DNA of 64,000 nt, taken from assembly GCA_001769125.1 (NCBI GenBank), contig MEOG01000041.1:62001-126000 (forward strand), given 5' to 3'. This document shows, in pieces, positions 11,593 to 64,000 of the stretch. Origin of the DNA: Bacteroidetes bacterium GWF2_35_48 (GTDB lineage: Bacteria; Bacteroidota; Bacteroidia; Bacteroidales; GWF2-35-48). Numbering within the stretch: the first letter of the stretch is position 1; the number at the start of each line of letters is the position of its first letter. Under the pieces are notes generated by a model that saw only the letters and a list, made by a program, of their open reading frames with translations, ran no database searches and had not been told where the DNA came from. The translations under genes were made by a program, and so were the position numbers.

Positions 11593-14500
11593 ATGAACAA
11601 ATCATTGGTTTCAATTATTATTGTGCTATTGTTCAAATTTACAATAAGTGCACAAACCCCCATGACATTAACTTTTAACACGCAGATCTCATCAGGGCAA
11701 ACTATTTCGTTACCATTATCAGGCTCTGTAAATGTTTCTATTGACTGGGGAGATGGCACTAATGAAAATGTTATTGTTAGTGGAATAATAGATCATACGT
11801 ATTCAAGTCCTGGGATATATATTGTTTCTATTACGGGACAAGTGAGCCACTTCGGAAATGGCTTTAATTCATATCCCAATGCTGAAAAACTGGTTTCTGT
11901 AACTGATTTTGGAGACCTCGGCATTACCAATCTTTCAGGAGCTTTTTATGGGGCAAAAAATTTAAGCAGTGTTCCTGCACAAATTCCATCAGGCGTTACC
12001 AACTTATCTTATATGTTTAAAGGAGATTCTGTTTTTAATTCAGATATTGGAACATGGGATGTCAGTAATGTAACAAATATGAACCAAATGTTTCAAGGGG
12101 CAGTGTCATTTAACCAGAATATAGGAAGCTGGAATGTAAATTATGTAACAAGCATGAATTACATGTTTACCGGGGCATCTGCATTTAATCAAGATATCGG
12201 CAACTGGTATACCGAAAATGTAACAAGTATGTATTTTATGTTCAGTCTGGCTACTGCATTTAATCAGGATATAGGAAATTGGAACGTAAGCAATGTTACT
12301 GATATGGGTGGTATGTTTTGGGCCGCATCAGCATTTAATCAAAATATTGGGAACTGGAATGTCAGCAATGTTCAGTATATGGATGAAATGTTTCTCAATG
12401 CTGTGGCATTTAATCAGGATATCAGCAATTGGAATGTAAGCAGTGTTACCAGTATGAATAAAATGTTTACCGGGGCGAATGCTTTTAACCAAGATATAGG
12501 AAATTGGAATGTCAGCAATGTTACCAATATGTCAGAAATGTTTTCATTTGCGACTTCTTTTAATCAAAATATTGGAAACTGGAATGTCAGCATTGTTACG
12601 AACATGAAAGAGATGTTTTACTTTGCTTCTGATTTCAATCAAAACCTTGCTGCCTGGGATATCAGAAATGTAACAGATATGTCAGGTATATTTCAAAACA
12701 GTGCTCTTTCTTCTCTTAATTACAGCAACATGCTTTCATCTTGGTATCTCTTACCCTTACAGATGAATGTTTCTTTTCATGCCGGCAATGCTAAATATGC
12801 TGCGGGAATACCTGCTTTTGCAAGACAAAGCATCATTAATAATTTTAACTGGAATATTACCGATGGCGGACCAGAGACATCAACGCCGATGGAACTTATT
12901 TTTAATACACAATTATCTTCTGGGACAACAATAACACTTCCTTTATTGGGAAATGTTTATGTTAGTATTGACTGGGGCGATGGATCAAGTGAAGTGGCTA
13001 CTACTATCGGGCTACTAAGCCACACCTATTCTACAGAAGGTATTTACCATGTATTAGTAAGCGGAACATTATCCCAATTTGGAAACGGTTCTGCAATATA
13101 TCCCAATGCCGAAAAATTAACTCAGGTTGTTCAATTTGGCACTATTGGACTGACAAGTCTTTCAGGTGCATTTACGGGTGCTGTGAACCTTACTTCCGTT
13201 CCAACCCAATTGCCTTCAACTGTTTCAGATTTATCATATATGTTTTGCAATGCATTATCTTTCAATATGAATATTGCATTATGGAATACCGGAAATATTA
13301 CCAACATGGAAAATTTGTTTGAAAATGCCGGTTCTTTCAATCAAAATATTCTGGGCTGGAATGTTAGCAATGTTGTTTCAATGAAAAGCATGTTTAAAAA
13401 TGCAACAACATTCAATCAATATATTGCCGGTTGGAACGTAAGTCAGGTAAGTAATATGAATTCGATGTTTTACAATGCCCTATCGTTTAATAGAAACCTT
13501 GGTAATTGGAACGTGGCTCAGGTAGCCGATATGGATAGTATGTTTTATGGAATAACACTTTCTACATCGAACTATAGTGGTATTCTTTCCGGCTGGTCTG
13601 CACTGCCTTTACAAAACAATGTAGTTTTCCATGCAGGGGGAAGTAAATATTATGCAGGAAACCCTACAAGTGCCAAACAAAATATTATAAATAATTTCAA
13701 CTGGACAATTACAGATGGCGGTCAGGAGCCTGTAGAAACAAGGATGATTCTTAAGTTCAACACACAACTTTCTTCAGGACTATCTGTTACATTACCACTC
13801 ATGGGAACAATAAATGTGTCTATTGACTGGGGAGACGGAAATACTGAAAATTTCATATCATCAGGACTTAAAAGTCACACCTACGATGCAGATGGTATTT
13901 ACGAAATATTTATCAGTGGCAGCCTGTCTACTTTTGGAAGTGGCGCATCTGTTTGCCCGAACATTGAAAAACTTATTGCTGTCTATAGCTTTGGCACCTT
14001 AGGATTAACAAGTCTTAACGGAGCATTCAAAGGAGCTGTTAATCTAACTGAAGTTCCGGAGCTTTTACCGGAAACCGTTACAATTTTGTCCAGAACCTTC
14101 AGCGGAGCAACTTCTTTTAATCAGGATATCGGAAACTGGGACGTTAGTCATGTAACTGATATGAATAAATTATTTGAAGGGGCAAGTCTCTTCAATCAGG
14201 GCATAGGAAACTGGAATACAGCAAATGTTTTAAACATGAGCGACCTGTTTTATGATGCCACAGCATTTAATCAACCCATCGGAAACTGGAATACCGGAAG
14301 TGTTACAAATATGTTATACATGTTCGGAAATGCATCTGCTTTTAATCAGGATATTGGAAACTGGAATGTTTCAAACGTAACAAACATGGGTTACATGTTT
14401 AATAATGCAACTTCATTTAACCAAACCCTCGAAAACTGGAATGTGAGTAATGTTACGCTTATGGGGGGGATGTTTTACAATGCCACAGCATTTAATCAAC

Positions 14501-17500
14501 CCATCGGAAGCTGGAATACTGGTAACGTTACGACTATGGGGAATATGTTTTACAATGCCCCTTTCTTTAACCATGACATAGGGAACTGGAATACAGGGAA
14601 TGTTATCAATATGAGCAATATGTTCCGGAGCGCAACATCTTTTAATCAAAACATAAATAATTGGAATGTAGAAAAAGTAACAAACATGTCATACATGTTC
14701 TGGAAAGATACTGTATTTAATCAACCTATCGGAAACTGGAATACAGGATTAGTTACCAATATGTCTTACATGTTTTACGAAGCAAAAGCATTTAATCAAC
14801 CCATAGGGAACTGGAATACAGCGAATGTTACAAACATGTCTTATATGTTTTATAAAGCATTTTCTTTTAATCAAAATATTGAAACCTGGAATACAGGCAA
14901 TGTTGCAAACATGTCCTATATGTTTAATTGGGCTACAGGGTTTAATCAACCATTAGGAAACTGGGATGTAAGTAAGGTTACTACTATGACATATATATTT
15001 TCTAACGCTTCTGCATTTAATCAACCTTTAGATAACTGGAACACCGGATTGGTAACCAATATGAATAATATGTTTAGCGGAGCCCTAACCTTTAACCAAA
15101 ACTTAGAAACCTGGAACGTGGGGAGCGTTACCAATATGTCAAGAATGTTTTATGGAGCCAGAGCATTTAACGGTATTATAGGTGCGTGGAATGTCAGTGC
15201 GGTAACCGATATGGAATTAATGTTTTTTTTAAATGATTATTTCAATCAGGATATCGGGTTATGGAACGTTGGCAATGTAACAAATATGCAAAGTATGTTT
15301 AATTCTGCAATAGCTTTTAATAAAGACATCGGGAATTGGAACACATTGAACGTAATAAACATGAGCAGTATGTTTTCAAACGCCGGTTCGTTCAACCAGA
15401 ATATTAACAACTGGAATGTAAGCAATGTTACAAATATGGCTGGTATGTTCAGTAGCACCATATCTTTCAACCAACCATTAAATAATTGGAATGTAGGAAA
15501 AGTAACCAATATGAACAACATATTTAGCTACGCCATAAATTTTAATCAGGATTTGGGAGCATGGGATGTAGGCATGGTTACAAGTATGTATAAAATGTTT
15601 TCCAATGCTGTGCTTTTTAATCAGAATTTAAGTAATTGGAACGTGGAACTGGTAAGCAATATGAACTTTATGTTTTATAATGCTGTACAATTTAACCAGA
15701 ATTTGGGATACTGGAATGTAACTAATGTGGCAGGTATGGACAGCATGCTTTATGGCGTTACGCTTTTAACAGAAAACTATGATAGTATGCTTGTCAGTTG
15801 GTCTGCTCTGACTTTAAAAAATGATGTAAAATTTCATGCCGGCGAAAGCAAGTTCCACTCCGGTGTTCCAGCAATTGCAAAGCAAAATATCATCAATAAT
15901 TTTAACTGGACGATCACAGATGGAGGAGAAGAAACAGTATCATTAATGAGTCTCAATTTTGATACACAGAATTCAGAACCTGCAACAATAACACTTCCTT
16001 TGTTCGGACAGGTTAATGTTACCATTGATTGGGGTGACGGAAATTCCGAATCAGTAACATCTCCCGGACTTATTCATCATACATATACAAGCAAATCATT
16101 AAAAACAGTTTCAATAAATGGTTTTCTTGAACAATTTGGAAATGGAAGCACAGGTTATCCTAATGCTGAAAAACTGGTACAAGTAAATAGTTTTGGAAAT
16201 ATTGGATTATCAAGTCTTGCCGGTGCGTTTAAAAATGCTGTTAATTTAATTTTCGTTCCCCTGATATTACCTGAAAATATCACAAATCTATCCTATGCTT
16301 TTTCAGGCACTGTTTTATTCAATCAAGATATAAGTGGATGGGATGTAAGCAATGTTGTTGCCATGGACAGCATGTTATACGGGGTAACGCTTTCAACGCA
16401 AAATTACAATAATTTACTTACCGCCTGGTCTGAATTATCCCTACAAAACAATGTAGTGTTGCATGCAGGGAACAGCAGATACAGCGATGGAGTTCCCGCT
16501 TCCTCACGTCAATACATTATTGAAAACTTCAACTGGACAATTTATGACGGGGGTATAATTGACACAGCACATATTTATGAAACTGTAGCTTTAGGAGATA
16601 CCGTGATATTACAAATATCAACACCTGTTGGAACTATCCAATGGCAAGAAAGTAATGACAGTATTCAGTGGGCAGATATGCAGGGCTATATTGATACAAT
16701 AGCCATTGTTACCACAACAATAAGTCCGACGAATTTAAAATTTTACAGAGCTGTTGTTACAGACAGTACCTGCATGAACATACCAACTTCAATCAGCAAT
16801 ATTATCCGGCATAAAATTATTGCAGATAAATCTGCTTTACAAATCGGTGACTTTTTTAAAGGAGGAATAATTTTTCAAACCACCGGCTATGGTCAAGGCT
16901 TATCAGCTCCAAAAGCTGATCAGAGTTTCGGAATTGAGTGGGGTTGTTCTGGAATTTCAATTGCAGAAGCATCCAGCCTTGAAGACGGTGCTCTAAATAC
17001 AGATGCCATCCTTTCAGATTGCAGTACGCGACCCATTGCCGCCAGCATTTGCAGCGATTTAATCCTGAATGGCTACGATGATTGGGTTTTACCAGCAGCA
17101 AACCAGCTTTCTTTTCTATATCAAAATAATAATCATGTTGGAGGTTTCTCTACCGATAATTATTGGACAAGTAGTGAGTTAGATTCAGAAAATGCTTATG
17201 TAATAAATTTTGCATCAGGTATTCAGTCAATGAGCGATAAATCTTCCTCAACAAATGCCATTCGTTGTATTAGAAAATATTATCCCAATCAACCCACAAT
17301 CAGTACTGCAATACTACAAGACAAACCTGTTGCTGTTAATATATTTGACCAACCGGAAGCACAGAATATCTGTCAGGGGGAAGACATCATTTTTTCCATC
17401 TCTACAGTAGGAACCTTACCTGTTTCCTATCAATGGAAAAAAAACGGGACAATTATTTCCGGGGCAACAGATAGTATTTTTTCATTATCTAATTCGAATA

Positions 17501-18666
17501 TTTCAATGGAAGGGCAATATTCATGCGAAGTCTCAAATATTTGTCGTTCTCTTGTCAGCAACCAGACTGAATGCAATATTATTTACCTTCTTTTAAATGC
17601 AGGCGCAGATAAAACAATTTGCGAAGAAACCTCAACAACCATTAATGCAACCTGCATAAGCAATCATGCAAATCTGTCAGGCAATCTTTCCTACAACTGG
17701 TTGCCTTCGTACGGTTTATCAGAAAATACAGTTCAAGAACCTGTTGCCTCCCCGGACAGTACAACAACCTATTATGCAACTGTTACAGATGAATTGGGCT
17801 GTACAAGCTCTGACTCAATAACTATTACAGTTCAAAATCCTTACGATAATGAGGTTATTTGTATGGTTACTGTTGATGAAATGGCTGGAAAAAATAAAAT
17901 AGTTTGGAATAAAACATATAATCAGGGAACAAATACATATATTATATACAAAGAAAATCTATCCGGGGATTATGTTATTGCAGGCAATGTACTTTTCGGA
18001 GATACATCTGTGTTTATTGATTTGGCAAGCACTCCTGAATTAAAAAACGAAAAATATAAAATTGCGCTGATCGACACATGTATGAATGAATCAGAATTCA
18101 GCCCGTTTCATCAAAGCATATTTCTCAGTATTTCTGAAGGGTCTCAGCCCGGTTTCATTACACTACAATGGAATCCTTACATTGATCAGTCTGGCATTTA
18201 TTCTCCCTCGTTTTATTCGGTTTACAAAGGAATCTCCCCTTCAAATATGAGCTTACTCACAACAGTTCCTGAAAATATTAATTCTTATAATGATTCTATT
18301 TTTGCAGAAGTGAATTATTATAAAATTGTTTTTGATAACGATTGCGGAACGTTGCTGACAGCAAATTCAAATATGGTTGACAATAGTATTTATGTTAGTA
18401 ATTTTGCCCACGAAAATAATTCAACCGCAAGGTTCAATATTTCTCCAAACCCTTTTAGCGACAAGACTTGCATCTCTTTCAACAATCCAGATAATAAAAA
18501 ATTAAAGATTGTTTTAAAAAACACAAAAGGGTGCATTGCACGTGATTGCGGTCAAACAAAAGGGGGACAAATATTTATTGAAAAATCTGACCTTAAACCG
18601 GGAATGTACTTTATAGAAATAATCGGGTCTGATATTTTATTTCGGGAAAAAATTATTATTGAGTAG
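11593..18666 (+). CDS. Giant BspA-like (DUF285) surface protein with type IX sorting domain
   Basis: 2357 residues, exported by a signal peptide (1-20). Four modules begin at about 22, 431, 716 and 1451. Each has a PKD-like header containing the motif SIDWGDG (TIDWGDG in the fourth), then 25-residue DUF285/BspA leucine-rich-type units (consensus FNQxIGNWNVSNVTNMxxMF), then a trailer ending NNFNWTITDGG. The unit counts are 9, 4, 22 and 1. Next come a DUF1566-like domain (about 1753-1897, with DWVLPAANQLSFLY and YWTSSE), an Ig-like domain (about 1917-2000, QWKKNGTIISGA), a PKD-type domain (about 2000-2083), a fibronectin-III-like stretch, and a type IX C-terminal sorting domain (about 2280-2357, ISPNPFSDKTCISF...LKPGMYFIEI). 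It is probably a surface adhesin or a secreted structural protein; the ligand is unknown. Single gene. Confidence 0.9.
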   Translation: MNKSLVSIIIVLLFKFTISAQTPMTLTFNTQISSGQTISLPLSGSVNVSIDWGDGTNENVIVSGIIDHTYSSPGIYIVSITGQVSHFGNGFNSYPNAEKLVSVTDFGDLGITNLSGAFYGAKNLSSVPAQIPSGVTNLSYMFKGDSVFNSDIGTWDVSNVTNMNQMFQGAVSFNQNIGSWNVNYVTSMNYMFTGASAFNQDIGNWYTENVTSMYFMFSLATAFNQDIGNWNVSNVTDMGGMFWAASAFNQNIGNWNVSNVQYMDEMFLNAVAFNQDISNWNVSSVTSMNKMFTGANAFNQDIGNWNVSNVTNMSEMFSFATSFNQNIGNWNVSIVTNMKEMFYFASDFNQNLAAWDIRNVTDMSGIFQNSALSSLNYSNMLSSWYLLPLQMNVSFHAGNAKYAAGIPAFARQSIINNFNWNITDGGPETSTPMELIFNTQLSSGTTITLPLLGNVYVSIDWGDGSSEVATTIGLLSHTYSTEGIYHVLVSGTLSQFGNGSAIYPNAEKLTQVVQFGTIGLTSLSGAFTGAVNLTSVPTQLPSTVSDLSYMFCNALSFNMNIALWNTGNITNMENLFENAGSFNQNILGWNVSNVVSMKSMFKNATTFNQYIAGWNVSQVSNMNSMFYNALSFNRNLGNWNVAQVADMDSMFYGITLSTSNYSGILSGWSALPLQNNVVFHAGGSKYYAGNPTSAKQNIINNFNWTITDGGQEPVETRMILKFNTQLSSGLSVTLPLMGTINVSIDWGDGNTENFISSGLKSHTYDADGIYEIFISGSLSTFGSGASVCPNIEKLIAVYSFGTLGLTSLNGAFKGAVNLTEVPELLPETVTILSRTFSGATSFNQDIGNWDVSHVTDMNKLFEGASLFNQGIGNWNTANVLNMSDLFYDATAFNQPIGNWNTGSVTNMLYMFGNASAFNQDIGNWNVSNVTNMGYMFNNATSFNQTLENWNVSNVTLMGGMFYNATAFNQPIGSWNTGNVTTMGNMFYNAPFFNHDIGNWNTGNVINMSNMFRSATSFNQNINNWNVEKVTNMSYMFWKDTVFNQPIGNWNTGLVTNMSYMFYEAKAFNQPIGNWNTANVTNMSYMFYKAFSFNQNIETWNTGNVANMSYMFNWATGFNQPLGNWDVSKVTTMTYIFSNASAFNQPLDNWNTGLVTNMNNMFSGALTFNQNLETWNVGSVTNMSRMFYGARAFNGIIGAWNVSAVTDMELMFFLNDYFNQDIGLWNVGNVTNMQSMFNSAIAFNKDIGNWNTLNVINMSSMFSNAGSFNQNINNWNVSNVTNMAGMFSSTISFNQPLNNWNVGKVTNMNNIFSYAINFNQDLGAWDVGMVTSMYKMFSNAVLFNQNLSNWNVELVSNMNFMFYNAVQFNQNLGYWNVTNVAGMDSMLYGVTLLTENYDSMLVSWSALTLKNDVKFHAGESKFHSGVPAIAKQNIINNFNWTITDGGEETVSLMSLNFDTQNSEPATITLPLFGQVNVTIDWGDGNSESVTSPGLIHHTYTSKSLKTVSINGFLEQFGNGSTGYPNAEKLVQVNSFGNIGLSSLAGAFKNAVNLIFVPLILPENITNLSYAFSGTVLFNQDISGWDVSNVVAMDSMLYGVTLSTQNYNNLLTAWSELSLQNNVVLHAGNSRYSDGVPASSRQYIIENFNWTIYDGGIIDTAHIYETVALGDTVILQISTPVGTIQWQESNDSIQWADMQGYIDTIAIVTTTISPTNLKFYRAVVTDSTCMNIPTSISNIIRHKIIADKSALQIGDFFKGGIIFQTTGYGQGLSAPKADQSFGIEWGCSGISIAEASSLEDGALNTDAILSDCSTRPIAASICSDLILNGYDDWVLPAANQLSFLYQNNNHVGGFSTDNYWTSSELDSENAYVINFASGIQSMSDKSSSTNAIRCIRKYYPNQPTISTAILQDKPVAVNIFDQPEAQNICQGEDIIFSISTVGTLPVSYQWKKNGTIISGATDSIFSLSNSNISMEGQYSCEVSNICRSLVSNQTECNIIYLLLNAGADKTICEETSTTINATCISNHANLSGNLSYNWLPSYGLSENTVQEPVASPDSTTTYYATVTDELGCTSSDSITITVQNPYDNEVICMVTVDEMAGKNKIVWNKTYNQGTNTYIIYKENLSGDYVIAGNVLFGDTSVFIDLASTPELKNEKYKIALIDTCMNESEFSPFHQSIFLSISEGSQPGFITLQWNPYIDQSGIYSPSFYSVYKGISPSNMSLLTTVPENINSYNDSIFAEVNYYKIVFDNDCGTLLTANSNMVDNSIYVSNFAHENNSTARFNISPNPFSDKTCISFNNPDNKKLKIVLKNTKGCIARDCGQTKGGQIFIEKSDLKPGMYFIEIIGSDILFREKIIIE
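14116..15765 (+). repeat. 22 tandem 75-base coding units (DUF285 repeats)
   Basis: Within the giant surface protein, 22 consecutive units of exactly 25 codons follow one another without spacers. Strongly fixed positions are FNQ, W at unit residue 8, NV/NT at 9-10, V at 13, M at 16 and MF at 19-20. The units are diverged rather than identical, so this is an old, still in-phase array. Shorter arrays (9, 4 and 1 units) lie in the other modules of the same gene. Confidence 0.9.
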
Positions 18667-28752: not shown

Positions 28753-28850
28753 TGCTTTGACTCCGACTCCGGTGGCTTCGGCTCCGGTGGCTTCGACTCC
28801 GCTGGCTTCGACTCCGCTGGCTTCGACTCCGCTCAGCCACCGGAGTCGAA
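28753..28850. repeat. 15-base tandem repeat with REP-like core
   Basis: Units close to ggcttcgactccgct or its ggt variant run about five times, then close with gctcagccaccggagtcgaa, which is inverted relative to the first units. The core is the same motif as in the REP-like family at 9022, 22791 and 23991. The block lies in the 175-base gap between glsA and glsB and is much more GC-rich than its surroundings. Confidence 0.75.
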
Positions 28851-33767: not shown

Positions 33768-34264
33768 CAAAAAAGAAAAAAAATACGGAAGAAATAAATG
33801 AAAAAGTAGCCATGCTTGCAGATATTGCTATGCAGGAGGAGGGGGAGGTCGGTGCTTCGGCTACGCTCAGCAACCTAGAGTCGGAAGAGGAGAAGGAAAA
33901 AAATAAAGAGAAGAAAGATAAAAGAAAAGCTTCATTCAGGGATTTAATTGATGGCAGTATTCTTACAAGAGATTATGTAATAGAACAGTTACCATTTTTG
34001 CTTTTCATCATGCTGCTTGCAATGGCTTATATAGCGAATAAATACAATTCTGAAAAAATGATAAGGGAAACTATTGCAATTCAAAATGAGCTGAAAGAGC
34101 TCAAATGCGAGAAAATTGCAGTTCAGTCAGAATTGATGTCGCTAAGCAAGCAATCAGAAATAGCAAAGCTGATTGATGAGAAAAAACTCGACCTGTATTT
34201 GTTAATAGAGCCTCCAAAAAAAATTGTAGTTCCCAGTACTAAACAAAACACGATACAAAATTAA
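33764..34264 (+). CDS. FtsL-like cell division protein
   Basis: 166 residues with a GTG start overlapping the rsmH stop. A long charged cytoplasmic N-terminus (1-72) precedes one transmembrane helix (about 76-93, LPFLLFIMLLAMAYIA) and a leucine-containing coiled coil (about 105-145, ending SEIAKLIDEKKLDLYLLI). Size, topology and position between rsmH and ftsI identify it as the FtsL counterpart, which links FtsB/FtsQ and activates the FtsWI synthase. In the N-terminal region a 12-codon segment (VGASATLSNLES, 33848-33883) matches the REP-like repeat family of this chromosome and splits a run of E residues, so it looks like an in-frame insertion. Confidence 0.85.
   Translation: MTKKKKNTEEINEKVAMLADIAMQEEGEVGASATLSNLESEEEKEKNKEKKDKRKASFRDLIDGSILTRDYVIEQLPFLLFIMLLAMAYIANKYNSEKMIRETIAIQNELKELKCEKIAVQSELMSLSKQSEIAKLIDEKKLDLYLLIEPPKKIVVPSTKQNTIQN
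33848..33883. repeat. REP-like repeat inside the ftsL-like gene
   Basis: The segment contains ggtgcttcggctacgctcag followed by caacc, related to the gcttcg-actccgctcagc-acc core at 28753-28850 and to the palindromes at 9022 and 23991. Its length is 36 bases, exactly 12 codons, and it is bracketed by purine-rich Glu codons on both sides. Confidence 0.6.
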
Positions 34265-40449: not shown

Positions 40450-40640
40450 GAGAATTAGGAATTAGGAATTATGAATTATGAATTATGAATTAGGAATTAC
40501 GAATTAGGAATTACGAATTGATGTACGATAGGAATACAATAGGAATACAATAGGAATACAATAGGAATACAATAGAACTTCCATTGAACATCTACTGAAC
40601 ATCTATTGAATATCTATTGAATATCTATTGAATATCTAAA
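40450..40640. repeat. Tandem repeat block between murD and ftsW (11-base period)
   Basis: Three parts in order. First, gaattaggaattatgaatta-like units (about 40450-40518). Second, four copies of aggaatacaat with an 11-base period (about 40529-40574). Third, about five copies of tattga(a/c)(t/c)atc-type units, again 11 bases (about 40581-40637). A diverged version of the same three-part order is found at 52059-52201. It contains no ORF with support and no terminator with a U-run. Confidence 0.85.
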
Positions 40641-52058: not shown

Positions 52059-52201
52059 AATTTAGAATTAGGAATTCAATTGGAATTCAATAGGAATTCG
52101 GTAGGAATACAATTGAACATCAACCGAACACCTATTGTTGTACTATCGAATTAACAATTGAGCATCTATTGAACATCTATCGTAGCACTACCGAACATCC
52201 T
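52059..52201. repeat. Diverged copy of the murD/ftsW repeat block
   Basis: The same order as at 40450-40640: aattaggaatt, then taggaattc/taggaatac units, then gaacatc(t/a)a(t/c)-type units (about 52133-52201), but with many changes. No gene in it. Confidence 0.7.
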
Positions 52202-63607: not shown

Positions 63608-64000
63608 TTATTTTAAAGAATCTTCGTTCCAATTCGCAGGATTATTTTTTATATATTCTGATATTTTCAAATATGCATTTTCATCCCGGATAATGTGTTC
63701 GTAATAACTACGCTGCCATAATTTTTTACAAAATGATTGCCACCCAAAATTTTTCACACCCTTTATATATGCATTTGTGGTCATGGGTTTAAACCAATCC
63801 ATTGCATCGCAAATGCTTGCATTAAATTTGATATTATCAATACCATATTGATTTTCGGGACATTCGTTTTCGTCGTTTTCGGGACGCCCACGAAGGGACG
63901 TCCCTTCGTGGACGTCCAACGATATATCATCCAACAACACATTTTCGATAATACAATGAAAATGGTTTGGCATGACAATTATTTCGTGGCAACGTTTATC
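63608..64000 (-). CDS. REP-associated tyrosine transposase (TnpA-REP/RAYT), 5' end outside window
   Basis: The visible 130 C-terminal residues begin DKRCHEIIVMPNHFHCIIE; the HFH is the HUH metal motif of Y1 transposases. The tyrosine is in TTNAYIKGVKNFGW. The end (WQRSYYEHIIRDENAYLKIS followed by EYIKNNPANW) is typical for the family. The frame continues past base 64000. Such domesticated single-strand transposases bind and spread REP palindromes. A near-perfect palindrome (63882-63917) lies in the gene itself, translating to DVHEGTSLRGRP. Confidence 0.88.
   Translation of the reverse strand, partial: DKRCHEIIVMPNHFHCIIENVLLDDISLDVHEGTSLRGRPENDENECPENQYGIDNIKFNASICDAMDWFKPMTTNAYIKGVKNFGWQSFCKKLWQRSYYEHIIRDENAYLKISEYIKNNPANWNEDSLK
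63882..63917. repeat. 18-base-arm palindrome inside the REP transposase gene
   Basis: GGACGCCCACGAAGGGAC (63882-63899) and GTCCCTTCGTGGACGTCC (63900-63917) are inverted with one mismatch and no loop. Its length, 36 bases, is exactly 12 codons and it keeps the frame open. Confidence 0.85.

Follow-up and report, generated by a model that had tools for sequence, protein, structure and literature searches.

We analysed a window of 64,000 nucleotides, the term standing throughout for that whole stretch, in which the dcw cluster includes the division gene ftsL (Table 1). Residues 60-159 of its product match the Pfam family FtsL_2 (E 4.8e-24), the FtsL-like family of Bacteroidetes, and are preceded by a Lys/Glu-rich N-terminal tail, which we take to be cytoplasmic from knowledge of the family. 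Alignment with relatives revealed that this tail is of low complexity, variable in length, and poorly conserved. Within it, upstream of the FtsL_2 domain, residues 29-40 are encoded by the segment GTCGGTGCTTCGGCTACGCTCAGCAACCTAGAGTCG, and the sequence, position, and frame of these 12 codons are just as the first-pass annotation had described them. The GC content of the segment is 61%, versus 34% in the remainder of ftsL, a value reached by only 0.2% of the 36-nt windows in three neighbouring coding genes.

Table 1. Features of the window discussed in the text, with positions counted from its first nucleotide.
Feature	Position	Strand	Context	Basis
ftsL (FtsL_2 family), 166 aa	33764-34264	+	dcw cluster, rsmH and ftsI on either side	Pfam, alignment with relatives
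REP-like palindrome copy, 12 codons VGASATLSNLES	33848-33883	+	in frame in ftsL	dispersed-repeat matches
Left arm CGGTG of ftsL copy	33850-33854	+		
Conserved core CTTCGGCTACGCTCAG of ftsL copy	33855-33870	+		
Right arm CAACC of ftsL copy	33871-33875	+	pairs with left arm	
Tail TAGAGTCGGAAGAGGA of ftsL copy	33876-33891	+		resembles GAGAGTCGGAAGTTGG after copies L140, L123, and L145
Second family copy within the window	28820-28841	+	short ORF, probably spurious	
Y1-type transposase gene	63608-63973	-	L065, window end	Pfam Y1_Tnp, 20.4 bits, below cut-off

The segment lies within a copy of an imperfect palindrome that is dispersed through the 5.98-Mb host genome. The 16-base core pattern CTTCGNCTNNGCTCAG occurs there at 168 sites with at most one mismatch, against one site for the reversed-pattern control, and the 22-mer GCTTCGGCTACGCTCAGCAACC has 38 matches genome-wide at up to three mismatches, against none for its reversed control; these counts bear out the earlier suggestion of a dispersed repeat. 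Inspecting 140 copies together with their flanks revealed a constant core between arms that vary by subfamily (GGTGG...CCACC, GGTGT...ACACC, GCTGA...TCAGC, and GGTA...TAACC). The two arms of a copy stay complementary to each other, with a mean of 4.04 of 6 possible Watson-Crick pairs compared with 2.23 for shuffled partners (1000 shuffles, maximum 2.54). Overall, the family comprises palindromes of 20-40 bp that are present in many copies and are mostly intergenic. The core sequence was looked for in the literature, with no result.

The copy in ftsL has the GGTR...YAACC form, and its arms pair with one bulged base, like those of the related GGTA...TAACC copies. The nearest other copy, L140, aligns with it over about 52 bases, GGAGGTCGG...GAGTCGGAAGAGGAGAAG, and the similarity takes in a tail, GAGAGTCGGAAG. 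Judging by this alignment, the ftsL copy probably extends past position 33883, and the tail of the repeat may account for some of the adjacent Glu/Lys codons. With similarity running this far, the unit need not be the exact 36 bases proposed in the first-pass annotation; that length is a boundary chosen by its reader rather than a measurement. The ftsL copy itself forms a weak hairpin, which as DNA does not exceed that of shuffled sequence (z about 0), and no stable RNA structure above that of shuffled sequence was detected in it, so the copy may be decayed. We assign it to the family by its sequence and not by a hairpin.

Copies in coding DNA are strongly depleted. In a census based on mechanical open frames rather than curated genes, 115 of the 140 copies fell outside open stretches of at least 150 codons, compared with 91% of random window positions falling inside an open stretch of 150 codons. 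The 25 copies counted as inside include several that probably precede the genuine start codon (L022, L114, L125, L133, and L145), as well as tandemly duplicated copies in one adhesin-like gene (L121). Several further genes of the genome carry the family in frame, in agreement with the earlier claim that in-frame landing in coding sequence is tolerated, and the surviving coding copies sit where extra residues are tolerable, namely in linkers, loops, and tails. This placement was established against repeat-free homologues for a VirB4/TraG-like protein and by domain position only for the remaining hosts. The VirB4/TraG-like protein carries 12 extra residues at the core relative to three plasmid homologues, seen as one 10-column and one 2-column gap in the alignment; no homologue was found in 30 relatives, and the plasmid proteins were compared instead. 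The copy of a BioG protein comes after the Pfam domain; that of a VapE-type primase separates PriCT_2 from the VapE-like domain, and a paralogue carries a copy at the same place. Two secreted proteins have the copy just before the Por_Secre_tail domain, and in a TPR/SpoIIE phosphatase it occupies a loop that differs among paralogues (two paralogues, compared by eye). For the L113 protein, the Pfam query deviated from the sequence in a few residues at its start, far from the reported domain. As a separate observation, G000 and G001 each yield about 50 SpoIIE-type phosphatase matches with E below 1e-30.

The core is also present in the sister genome G001, the sole other genome of the genus compared (53 sites, control 1). 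The GGTNN-core-NNACC form, in turn, has 39 sites in the present genome, none in G001, and no more than two in each of 58 other relatives, which indicates that it expanded in this lineage. The FtsL protein of G001 is 56% identical; its tail is comparable but lacks the repeat, and is too diverged for a base-by-base alignment. The comparison of sister loci proposed in the first-pass annotation thus succeeded in part: the segment is absent from the sister, but an empty site cannot be defined. From these sequence comparisons, the repeat in ftsL is probably recent. Among other ftsL genes, a search for REPs in the FtsL tail of L041, which is unusually long, turned up weak inverted repeats only, and loose matches to the core in the ftsL genes of L032 and L046 lay outside the tail segment and were rejected as chance.

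We consider it probable, at roughly 86%, that the ftsL segment is a copy of a lineage-expanded REP-like repeat that entered in frame and was kept in a tolerant tail. A family with a constant core and variable, mutually complementary arms would have expanded in this lineage, presumably through hairpins copied as single-stranded DNA, the route proposed for REPs, and one copy, of a length divisible by three, would have entered the N-terminal cytoplasmic tail of ftsL. It would have been kept there, presumably as a neutral addition, because a low-complexity, length-variable tail placed before the conserved domain tolerates extra residues. An older origin, with the copy already carried by the common ancestor of the genus and a later loss on the sister's side, would fit the core-bearing repeats of G001, but we find it quite unlikely, as the GGTNN...NNACC arm type is absent from that genome and nearly absent from the 58 other relatives; an insertion in ftsL would be the preferred reading over a loss. 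A function within ftsL, for instance as a nucleic-acid signal (RNA or DNA) of the division operon or through a peptide under selection, could account for the retention of the repeat in frame in an essential gene. We regard such a function as very improbable, given the lack of a stable RNA structure, the otherwise unconserved tail, and the use of four different reading frames of the repeat among the other host genes, by which no common peptide is selected. Finally, the notion that the segment is ordinary ftsL coding sequence, repeat-like by chance or convergent codon use, would suit a low-complexity, poorly conserved tail and a copy with no significant hairpin, but it is extremely improbable in light of the outlying GC content, the long match to L140, and the copy counts, with 38 near-copies of the 22-mer and none in the reversed control, which speak strongly against it.

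The first-pass annotation had further linked the segment to the transposase gene at the window end, which carries in frame a near-perfect 36-base palindrome, GGACGTCCACGAAGGGACGTCCCTTCGTGGGCGTCC (peptide DVHEGTSLRGRP). The two elements have no pattern in common, and the 24-base centre of the transposase palindrome is single-copy in the genome even at three mismatches; their equal length is therefore a coincidence, and the proposed link is not supported. No core was found in L065, a stretch that contains the transposase gene with no less than 600 bp on either side. Among the genome's Y1_Tnp loci, the core occurs near one only (C140, two matches), and the arrangement that characterizes RAYT-mobilised REPs, repeats flanking a tnpA-REP (Y1) gene, was not observed. 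No transposase is tied to the repeat family, and a Y1 transposase acting in trans may have carried out the copying of single-stranded DNA.

Intragenic REPs are already known in other bacteria (PMC3733652, PMC6006769). The GTAG and CGTC REPs are short, high-copy, and mostly intergenic, with some located wholly inside ORFs of unrelated proteins, and CGTC REPs also occur in Bacteroidetes, without a dedicated transposase (Di Nocera et al. 2013, PMC3733652). The present family resembles them as a set of short, high-copy palindromes that are mostly intergenic and in part intragenic. However, the foot of the ftsL hairpin bears CGGTG...CAACC rather than the GTAG/GTGG or CGTC tetranucleotides that define the two superfamilies, and we therefore call the copy REP-like and a member of neither. 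Ends of the form GTGG...CCAC or GTAG...CTAC do occur in some copies elsewhere in the family, and in about 10 of the 140 a CGTC-like tag lies close to the core, on the side where it is expected. A longer form of 52 bases, GTAGAATCGCTCCATA-core-CACAGGTGGAGCGATTCTAC, is bounded at either end by GTAG/CTAC (L088, L110, L115, and other copies) and resembles the "double foot" REPs (PMC6006769). REPs also lie in frame inside tnpA-REP genes of subclass 2.4, common in Bacteroidetes (PMC6006769), and are thus alike in being in-frame palindromes in coding DNA; the transposase of our window is an apparent case, although its single-copy palindrome is unrelated to the ftsL segment. The Rickettsia palindromic elements, of about 150 bp, are the classic protein-coding palindromes and are largely intragenic (PMC10969869). 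Compared by description, they share with the present family the spread into unrelated coding genes with the frame intact, seen here as in-frame insertion in several unrelated genes relative to homologues without it, but they are longer and largely intragenic, whereas this family is short and mostly intergenic.

With ftsL, a core gene of the dcw cluster joins the genes decorated by short palindromes, and the genome allows a count of both the landing sites (linkers, loops, and tails) and the coding frames in use. For annotation, odd peptides such as ASATLS, VTLSEVEG, and TERSRS in Bacteroidota proteins can be repeat-derived. A broader proposition, which we hold to be unlikely, is that a Bacteroidota palindrome family with no transposase of its own still spreads and has time and again placed short peptides in inter-domain linkers and tails, that of an essential division protein included; if true, the family would act as a source of new linker sequence.

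Several minor observations accompany this analysis. An adhesin-like repeat protein (L121 7040-8673, and L131) has the core within several tandem Ig-like repeats (FVTLSAVEVCNG), which suggests that a copy was multiplied as the domain was duplicated. At about position 1502 of L114, the likely start codon of a frame lies inside a long-hairpin copy (GTAGAATCG...CGATTCTAC). Elsewhere in the window, a 2357-aa protein (11593-18666) carries a 25-residue repeat (75-nt period) in more than 25 copies, and 11-base tandem repeats (TAGGAATACAA and TATTGAACATC) occur at 40529-40640 and 52069-52200, both between genes.
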